A DNA stretch of 35,055 nt from Gammaproteobacteria bacterium (GTDB lineage: Bacteria > Pseudomonadota > Gammaproteobacteria > Chromatiales > Chromatiaceae), in the NCBI GenBank assembly GCA_009908845.1, contig JAAAOQ010000124.1, forward strand, positions 1 to 35,055. The letters run 5' to 3'. Numbering within the stretch: the stretch's first letter is position 1; every line of letters starts with the position of its first letter. Below, piece by piece: positions 18,293-19,958 of the stretch. A program made the translations under genes and the position numbers. A model generated the notes under the pieces. The model was not told the origin of the DNA and searched no databases. It saw only the letters and a program-made list of their open reading frames with translations.

Positions 18293-18584
18293 CAGATCGG
18301 TAACCGGTTCAGACCGGTAGCCGGTTCAGACCCTGAGGTATCCCCACAATTTGGCCGCCGCTGGGGTGCCGGCACGATGATAACCCCCGGGGGGTTGCCG
18401 AAACCGGCCTGTCGCCCGCAAGCGGGCGACGCGGCGAGTGATCCCTGGCGATGAGGCCCTAGCGCAGTGGCTTGCTGGGCAAGCAGAGGATAACCTGCCG
18501 TCTTTTCGAGTCAATTTCTGGGGATACCTCAGGTTCAGACGAGTACGGACTCAGACCAGTAGCTGGCTCAGATCAGTCTCGCTT
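18293..18584. repeat. degenerate 16-17 bp tandem repeat (about 5 units), interrupted by an inserted element
   Basis: Units: CAGATCGGTAACCGGTT (18293-18309), CAGACCGGTAGCCGGTT (18310-18326), CAGAC[insertion]/CAGACGAGTACGGACT (18327-18331 and 18536-18551), CAGACCAGTAGCTGGCT (18552-18568), CAGATCAGTCTCGCTT (18569-18584). Confidence 0.8.
18332..18533. mobile_element. MITE-like element, about 202 bp
   Basis: Terminal inverted repeats CCTGAGGTATCCCCA (18332-18346) / TGGGGATACCTCAGG (18519-18533), imperfectly extendable inward. Immediate 7-bp direct repeats TTCAGAC at 18325-18331 and 18534-18540. No full transposase. Confidence 0.78.
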
Positions 18585-18674
18585 GAGGCCCTTGCTCGAT
18601 TGTTTTACTCAATGCCCTTGCTCAACCATCGTTTCCTGAATCCTGCTGAGTCGCAACAGCTGACCGTCGAGCCG

Positions 18675-18983
18675 ATGGTCAGGACCAGCGTGCGGCCGCT
18701 CGGCGACCAGGACCAAGCTCGGCTGCGCATCGCTGCAGTACTGAGCCTCATGCTGCTAACAGGCTGCGCCGGCTCGCTCGGCGATGGCGGCGACGATCTG
18801 ATGCATGTCAGCTGCCTCGAAGCGCCCGCACGGGGTCGATGTAGCAGTCCGGTCGATGCCGTCTATTATGACTATCAGAGCGATACCTGCCGCGTGTTTC
18901 GGCCCGGGGTCTGTGATCGTGATTGGCCGTTCCGGACGATGCGCGACTGCGTTGCCGCCTGCGGCGGCCGCCCGCAACGTTGA
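18675..18983 (+). CDS. putative lipoprotein with a Kunitz/BPTI-type domain
   Basis: MVRTSVRPLGDQDQARLRIAAVLSLMLLTGCAGSLG... (lipobox LLTGC), then CLEAPARGRCSSPVDAVYYDYQSDTCRVFRPGVCDRDWPFRTMRDCVAACGG. Cys spacing 8-15-7-11-3 against 8-15-7-12-3 in BPTI. Start codon uncertain (ORF opens at 18438 inside the MITE-like element). Confidence 0.8.
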   Translation: MVRTSVRPLGDQDQARLRIAAVLSLMLLTGCAGSLGDGGDDLMHVSCLEAPARGRCSSPVDAVYYDYQSDTCRVFRPGVCDRDWPFRTMRDCVAACGGRPQR

Positions 18984-19016
18984 GCTTTGGAGCATCCGCA
19001 ACCGGAGGGGAAACAG

Positions 19017-19802
19017 ATGGGCAACCTTCGACTGGCAACATCCCGGTTTGCGGGCGGTCGTGGCCTTCGGGGGTGGCGTCTGCTCGTGCTTCTCGGCTTA
19101 CTGATTGGCTGGCTTGGTGCCGTCCCGCTCGCCATCGCGCAGAGCTGGCGTGGTCAGTTGGAGGGTGGTCCGGAGATCATGGTTGATCCCGACACGCGAC
19201 GGGCGACAGGGGTGATCGACGGTGAGCGGCGCCCGCTCTGGGATGGCGTCCACAAGCTCGAGGACGGGTCCACGGTGATCGTGCGCGACGGGATCGCGGT
19301 GCCGACTGAGCCGATGTATCAGCAGTGGCGCGGACAGGCCGAGCCGGAGCCGGTCTTCGCTCGCCGTTATTGCAAGCAGCTCGTGCGCAAGACCTGTGGC
19401 TTTGATGATGCCTGCCGTTCATCGGCAGCCTGCCTGCGCGCGCGCGCACTACTCGATGAGGCGGCCCAAGATCGGCGCGGGCGCAGTGACTTCGACCGCG
19501 ATTCGGCACCGTCCGCAACCAATGATCGCTGTCGCGATGCGCTCGACGACCCGGAGTTTCCGGCCTGCTCGAGCATTGGCTCTGAAGCCGGCGACAGTCG
19601 TTGCCGAGCGTTGGTGGAGCGCACTTGTGGGGCGGACAATGCCTGCGCTGACTCGCAGGCCTGCGACGCGGCCCGTCAGCTCCAGGGGCTGGAGACCCAG
19701 GAGCGGCTCACCAATGCAGACCCGAGCGCGTTGAGTCAGACCGGTCGTCAGTGTCTGGAGGCAATGAACAACAGCTTCTTCGAGCCCTGCGAGCAGCGCT
19801 AG
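19017..19802 (+). CDS. secreted protein with a tandemly duplicated six-cysteine domain
   Basis: Signal peptide (WRLLVLLGLLIGWLGAVPLAIAQS). Two aligned blocks: CKQLVRKTCGFDDACRSSAAC-x32-CRDALDDPEFPAC and CRALVERTCGADNACADSQAC-x29-CLEAMNNSFFEPC. RBS-like ggagggg before ATG 19017. Confidence 0.8.
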   Translation: MGNLRLATSRFAGGRGLRGWRLLVLLGLLIGWLGAVPLAIAQSWRGQLEGGPEIMVDPDTRRATGVIDGERRPLWDGVHKLEDGSTVIVRDGIAVPTEPMYQQWRGQAEPEPVFARRYCKQLVRKTCGFDDACRSSAACLRARALLDEAAQDRRGRSDFDRDSAPSATNDRCRDALDDPEFPACSSIGSEAGDSRCRALVERTCGADNACADSQACDAARQLQGLETQERLTNADPSALSQTGRQCLEAMNNSFFEPCEQR

Positions 19803-19843
19803 GCCGGTGTCACCAGCCACCATCCGAGGGGCCCATTCTTCAG

Positions 19844-19958
19844 CCTAGAAACCGCAGTTGGACGGCCGTCACCCATGGGTGCGCTTCATGAAGCGCCAGA
19901 AGTGGAACCAGTGCAAAGGGTTGCATGCTGGGCTAAGCGGTCAACTGCGGTTTCTAGG
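19844..19958. mobile_element. 115-bp inverted-repeat (MITE/IS-remnant-like) element
   Basis: Perfect 17-bp terminal inverted repeats CCTAGAAACCGCAGTTG (19844-19860) / CAACTGCGGTTTCTAGG (19942-19958). Internal palindromes ACCCATGGGT (19871-19880) and GCGCTTCATGAAGCGC (19881-19896). Confidence 0.75.

Follow-up and report, generated by a model that had tools for sequence, protein, structure and literature searches.

The window, by which we mean the whole stretch of 35,055 nucleotides that was analyzed, contains two adjacent genes, one for a Kunitz-type lipoprotein and one for a protein with duplicated six-cysteine domains (Cys6). The gene pair is conserved in Halochromatium and Thiohalocapsa, has a single-clade ancestry on the Cys6 side, and is under purifying selection. 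Our preferred reading, which we hold with about even confidence, is that the two genes are a vertically inherited envelope pair of halophilic Chromatiaceae, consisting of an ancestral tethered inhibitor and a disulfide-rich partner, and that the inhibitor loop has been altered in Halochromatium. The source was a draft genome of 274 contigs (87% complete), assigned to the genus Halochromatium by GTDB grouping. Its closest relative in the comparison was H. glycolicum DSM 11080, whose Cys6 protein is 97% identical.

The Kunitz and Cys6 genes are on the same strand, 33 bp apart, and are flanked by a GH13 gene and a CCP/MauG gene. They are the only genes between two inverted-repeat elements, element 1 and element 2. 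This layout had been described in an earlier note on this DNA, and both elements and both genes were confirmed at the positions in Table 1. A clear ribosome-binding site (GGAGGGG) precedes the Cys6 ATG. The promoter and terminator scan found no terminator-like sites and a single promoter-like match, which was weak and on the minus strand. Read from stop to stop, the Kunitz open frame reaches back into element 1, to a GTG there (window 18438-18983), and automatic annotation may therefore add a false, transposon-derived N-terminus; the conserved ATG at 18675, shared with H. glycolicum, is outside the element.

Table 1 Features of the Kunitz-Cys6 locus and its surroundings in the window.
Feature	Position	Strand	Basis
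Glycosyltransferase gene upstream of GH13, in conserved block	15045..16412	+	Annotation, synteny
GH13 sucrose-phosphorylase-like enzyme, conserved upstream neighbor	16416..18212	+	TIGR03852 E = 2.7e-61, under cut-off; synteny
17-bp tandem repeats (TCAGACCGGTAGCCGGT-like) in the GH13-Kunitz interval	18292..18331, resuming 18534-18577	+	Array intact in H. glycolicum
Element 1, 202-bp MITE with IS4-type ends	18332..18533		Empty site, other copies, full-length relatives
Kunitz lipoprotein gene, 102 aa	18675..18983	+	PF00014 E = 1.1e-4; same start in H. glycolicum
Cys6 gene, 261 aa: CopK-like beta domain and two six-cysteine helical domains behind a Sec signal peptide	19017..19802	+	Family alignments, AlphaFold
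Element 2, 115-bp MITE	19844..19958		Multi-copy, 5-bp target duplication TTCAG/TTCAA, synteny break
CCP/MauG di-haem peroxidase (ccp)	20072..21115	+	PF03150 E = 5e-59; adjacent in window only, outside conserved locus

A search of public genomes with the Cys6 family identified 76 loci in Chromatiales and relatives. The Kunitz gene was directly upstream of Cys6 on the same strand at ten loci, three in Halochromatium (window included) and seven in Thiohalocapsa, with gaps of 33 to ~230 bp in nine loci and 1.2 kb in the tenth. The earlier note had claimed two adjacent genes for cysteine-rich exported proteins, and the possibility that they never co-occur elsewhere is removed by the nine further loci in these two genera. 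The Kunitz gene follows GH13 in seven of the eight genomes of the genus, and the order GT-GT-GH13-Kunitz-Cys6 is conserved in Thiohalocapsa. The pair also persists without the upstream GH13 gene (L124 and L134) and with downstream genes that vary from lineage to lineage. In the maximum-likelihood tree of Cys6, the Kunitz-linked proteins fell into a single ten-row clade (support 100/99), in which nine rows are linked. The simplest reading is that the linkage was a single ancient event, later lost in some Halochromatium, and not the spread of a mobile cassette.

In G002, G003, G005, and G006, all of this genus, no Cys6 gene lay beside the Kunitz gene, which itself showed no visible loss, and in Chromatiaceae bacterium GEM2.Bin25 (L075) Cys6 was located away from Kunitz, so the two genes can occur apart. 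A Kunitz gene is also missing from the surroundings of most Cys6 relatives. Genome-wide, the co-occurrence of the two families was weak outside the linked clade, and a hand count within the bacterial family gave 14 genomes with both, only slightly above the ~11 expected. A third conserved neighbor, a cupin-like gene, was found upstream of Kunitz in Thiohalocapsa (L124, L125, L126, L127, L129, L134, and L135) and in GEM2.Bin25, and this neighbor had no match in Pfam or NCBIfam. Five Thiohalocapsa loci (L124, L125, L126, L127, and L135) have a conserved CTAGACTC, resembling a -10 box, close ahead of the Cys6 ATG, at a distance of a few nucleotides. It may be a sign of a separate leaderless Cys6 transcript in these loci, which makes co-transcription of the pair uncertain.

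Animals are the best-known source of Kunitz domains. In Pseudomonadota such domains were rare, and the Pfam model (E ≤ 1e-5) detected them in 2 of 299 sampled genomes and missed the copy of the source genome. The family's own profile detected 4 of 274 genomes in the class at E ≤ 1e-5, the source genome included, and in the bacterial family of the source they were common (19 of 58 genomes at E ≤ 1e-3). The window protein has a signal peptide with the lipobox LLTG-C (RIAAVLSLMLLTG-C) and a single Kunitz/BPTI domain with all six cysteines; by inspection, most of the family has a similar hydrophobic stretch followed by a cysteine. When aligned to BPTI, the six cysteines were in register (5-55, 14-38, 30-51) and would form the corresponding disulfides. 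The PF00014 match scored 22.7 bits, above the curated cut-off of 21 (E = 1.1e-4), and the Kunitz family profile matched animal Kunitz chains in the PDB with a best E value of 4e-26. The AlphaFold model was of modest confidence (mean pLDDT 69.6), and its top Foldseek matches were Kunitz chains with a probability of 1.0 and a TM score of ~0.7, though with E values of only ~0.01. The Pfam match, the PDB hits, and the predicted structure all point to a Kunitz domain of the BPTI type. It shares the cysteine register, YYD core, PDB profile match, and fold of the PF00014 domains of bovine pancreatic trypsin inhibitor, SmCI, TFPI, and boophilin. Unlike these, it is part of a bacterial lipoprotein, its C38-C51 spacing is one residue shorter, and in Halochromatium P1 is Ser, Gly, or Asp and Gly37 is replaced by Val.

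Arg at P1 and Gly36-Gly37 are features of an active trypsin-type inhibitor. The canonical signature (Lys or Arg at position 15, the P1 site, with Gly36-Gly37) was present in most Thiohalocapsa relatives, with Arg P1 in 6 of 7 copies and Gly36-Gly37 in all 7, and absent from the window protein, which has Ser at P1 and Gly36-Val37 (BPTI numbering). None of the seven Halochromatium copies with the GH13-Kunitz arrangement had a basic P1 residue (Ser, Gly, or Asp instead), and all seven had Val37. Every Halochromatium copy kept the six cysteines and the YYD/F core. Between the source genome and H. glycolicum, dN/dS was ~0.37 for the whole Kunitz gene and ~0.19 for the mature protein; the latter value represents purifying selection and indicates that the gene is kept. 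The altered reactive loop argues against simple trypsin-type inhibition in the source organism, and judging from these residues, trypsin inhibition has probably been lost or changed in Halochromatium, the source included. The natural series from canonical loops in Thiohalocapsa to altered loops in Halochromatium offers a direct test of bacterial Kunitz function.

In the freely accessible literature, a study of Acinetobacter peptides was the only relevant work on bacterial Kunitz domains. It reported inhibition of serine proteases in vitro and argued from measured activities that P1 determines specificity (PMC11511053). The peptides KABP1-5 of Acinetobacter baumannii F6W77 are, like the window protein, bacterial Kunitz domains, and they inhibit serine proteases with P1-set specificity; however, they belong to a secreted multi-domain protein with Arg or Leu at P1 (PMC11511053), whereas the window protein is a lipoprotein that has just one domain and is paired with Cys6. 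A membrane-anchored Kunitz protein that comes with a conserved partner can help to test the role of such domains in bacteria.

Forty-nine members of the Cys6 family have a beta domain with an invariant WDG and H, followed by one or two six-cysteine domains. The cysteine spacing is nearly fixed (C-x7-C-x5-C-x5-C-x25-37-C-x11/12-C), and all 12 cysteines are invariant in the two-repeat members. The AlphaFold model of the window protein (mean pLDDT 89) showed six strands and two helical units, and the mature protein is under purifying selection, with a dN/dS of ~0.26 between the source genome and H. glycolicum. The protein matched no family in Pfam or NCBIfam, scanning these 49 members gave only weak, scattered, and meaningless hits, and the family profile had no match among PDB sequences. 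The Cys6 domain is widespread in Chromatiales, as a family without a name in Pfam or NCBIfam. Its six-strand beta domain resembles that of the periplasmic copper-resistance protein CopK (PDB 3N7D/3DSO), with a Foldseek probability of 0.99 and a TM score of 0.67–0.69 to 3N7D, but the E value was 0.19 and sequence profiles were unsupportive (hhalign probability 2.3). We therefore set kinship with CopK aside and treat the match as a likeness of fold alone. Since no sequence profile backs such kinship, a role in metal handling is only a lead.

These properties suggest how the pair may work. The Kunitz protein would be exported and held by a lipid anchor, probably at the outer membrane, and its ancestral form would have been a tethered BPTI-type inhibitor whose Arg P1 loop could insert into trypsin-like proteases at the surface. 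Cys6 would be the exported partner, either periplasmic or secreted, in which a small beta domain is joined to two helical domains of three putative disulfides each. It probably occupies the same compartment as the Kunitz protein and may serve as a protease-resistant binding or scaffold protein; the two genes may be expressed together and their products may act jointly. In Halochromatium, where the loop lacks the basic P1 residue and Gly37, the Kunitz fold has probably been retained for another target or for binding. The flanking elements are independent MITEs with no role in the working of the pair.

Both inverted-repeat elements are real, decisively because of their copy number and target duplications; for the inverted-repeat arms, the best 20-nt pair in the region matched at 18 of 20 positions, and 40 dinucleotide-preserving shuffles reached a maximum of 17. 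Element 1 has the ends CCTGAGGTATCCCC...GGGGATACCTCAGG, with 14-bp perfect ends CCTGAGGTATCCCC, and is flanked by a perfect 7-bp target duplication, TTCAGAC (18325-18331 and 18534-18540). One other copy was found in the source genome and five matches in H. glycolicum. The element interrupts the 17-bp tandem repeat array, which is uninterrupted at the orthologous site in H. glycolicum and thus represents an empty site. Another genome (G029) had elements of ~1360 bp that share these ends and are likewise flanked by 7-bp duplications, and a 1359-bp copy in G006 with these ends contained an IS4-family transposase gene (NF033591 E = 3e-82). This likeness to the longer elements places element 1 among the MITEs of the IS4-family group; its terminal repeats, duplication length, lack of a transposase gene, and multi-copy occurrence all agree with this assignment. 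It shares the 14-bp ends and 7-bp target duplications with IS4-family insertion sequences but is only 202 bp long, carries no gene, and has little in common with the full-length elements beyond the ends.

Element 2 has the ends CCTAGAAACCGCAGTTG...CAACTGCGGTTTCTAGG and the flanks TTCAG/TTCAA at 19839-19843 and 19959-19963. Thirteen matches were found in the source genome and 24 in H. glycolicum. The element-2 family is multi-copy with lengths of about 110 to 271 bp, and most of the 20 paired copies with flanks had 5-bp duplications. These duplications and the CCTAGA ends suggested IS1380, but the element-2 ends were missing from the IS1380 transposase genes found in the genus; we rejected IS1380 as the parent, and no other parent transposase was found. 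Synteny with H. glycolicum breaks at element 2: there, what follows Cys6 is a repeat of the element-2 type reduced to its left end, and then nikR, and the ccp gene is on a different contig. The GH13-to-ccp interval, which the earlier note had proposed to compare among related genomes, is therefore not conserved as a unit. The break may perhaps have arisen by recombination between element-2 copies; an assembly join at this repeat, on which the Cys6-ccp junction of the source draft lies, is less likely. The neighbors of ccp in G002, G005, and G007 did not reveal which genome has the older arrangement on the Cys6 side.

The main rival to a functional envelope pair is passive linkage, in which two unrelated envelope genes became adjacent once in an ancestor of the halophilic Chromatiaceae and have persisted together by descent without joint function. 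We regard this as a substantial possibility, though short of even. In its favor, a single origin is the best fit on the Cys6 tree, four genomes keep Kunitz without an adjoining Cys6, and the two families are mostly unlinked elsewhere. However, the pair has outlasted a change of both outer neighbors (L124 and L134) and was kept as identity fell to ~60% for Cys6 and ~45% for Kunitz. It is unlikely that the Halochromatium Kunitz gene is instead decaying, with an inhibitor no longer needed and a drifting loop. Such decay would explain why the basic P1 and Gly37 are gone across Halochromatium, why P1 varies among Ser, Gly, and Asp, and why the whole-gene dN/dS is ~0.37, but the mature-domain value of 0.19 and the six cysteines and YYD/F core in every Halochromatium copy speak against it, and no disrupted copies were found.

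Vampirococcus lugosii, an epibiont with genes for many peptidases, is known to prey on Halochromatium (PMC8080830), so a defensive role of the pair is conceivable. The two proteins would then be an undescribed two-component surface defense of halophilic purple sulfur bacteria, aimed at proteases from attached predators or competitors, and the Kunitz loop would be changing under this pressure; we consider this quite improbable. Fainter still is the prospect that the two elements carry or bound the pair as a mobile accessory cassette. The elements do flank the pair on both sides in the source genome, but they come from two distinct families, differ in their target duplications, and each have a separate pair of ends that does not enclose the genes. 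H. glycolicum has the pair without element 1, and Thiohalocapsa has it in the GT-GT-GH13-Kunitz-Cys6 order; the empty site and the vertical pattern already contradict the cassette. The earlier note's bracketed cassette survives in that both flanking elements are real MITEs, but they do not define the gene pair, and their bracketing of it is coincidental. Its proposal of an accessory module inserted in a permissive region likewise disagrees with the vertical inheritance of the pair, the position of Kunitz after GH13 in nearly all genomes of the genus, and the missing element 1 at the H. glycolicum site.

Several other sequences related to the two elements were observed. On contig 2 of H. glycolicum (G001, L118:1500-2726), an Rpn-family nuclease/putative transposase gene (TIGR01784 E = 1e-40) lies within CCTGAGGTATCCCC ends; the flanks GTCCGTC/GTCTGTC resemble a 7-bp duplication, and the right 53 bp are 96% identical to element 1. 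Rpn was dropped as the enzyme mobilizing element 1 after the full-length IS4-family element with identical ends was found, and the Rpn gene is apparently a passenger carried in IS4-type ends. In H. salexigens (L113), a YhgA-like gene adjoins a lone copy of an element-1 end. The window also contains, at 2617-2720, a truncated element-2-type end (CCTAAGAAGCGGCAGTTGAAC) beside the stop codon of a glycogen phosphorylase gene, and its inner part is 77% identical to sequence found where Cys6 meets nikR in H. glycolicum.
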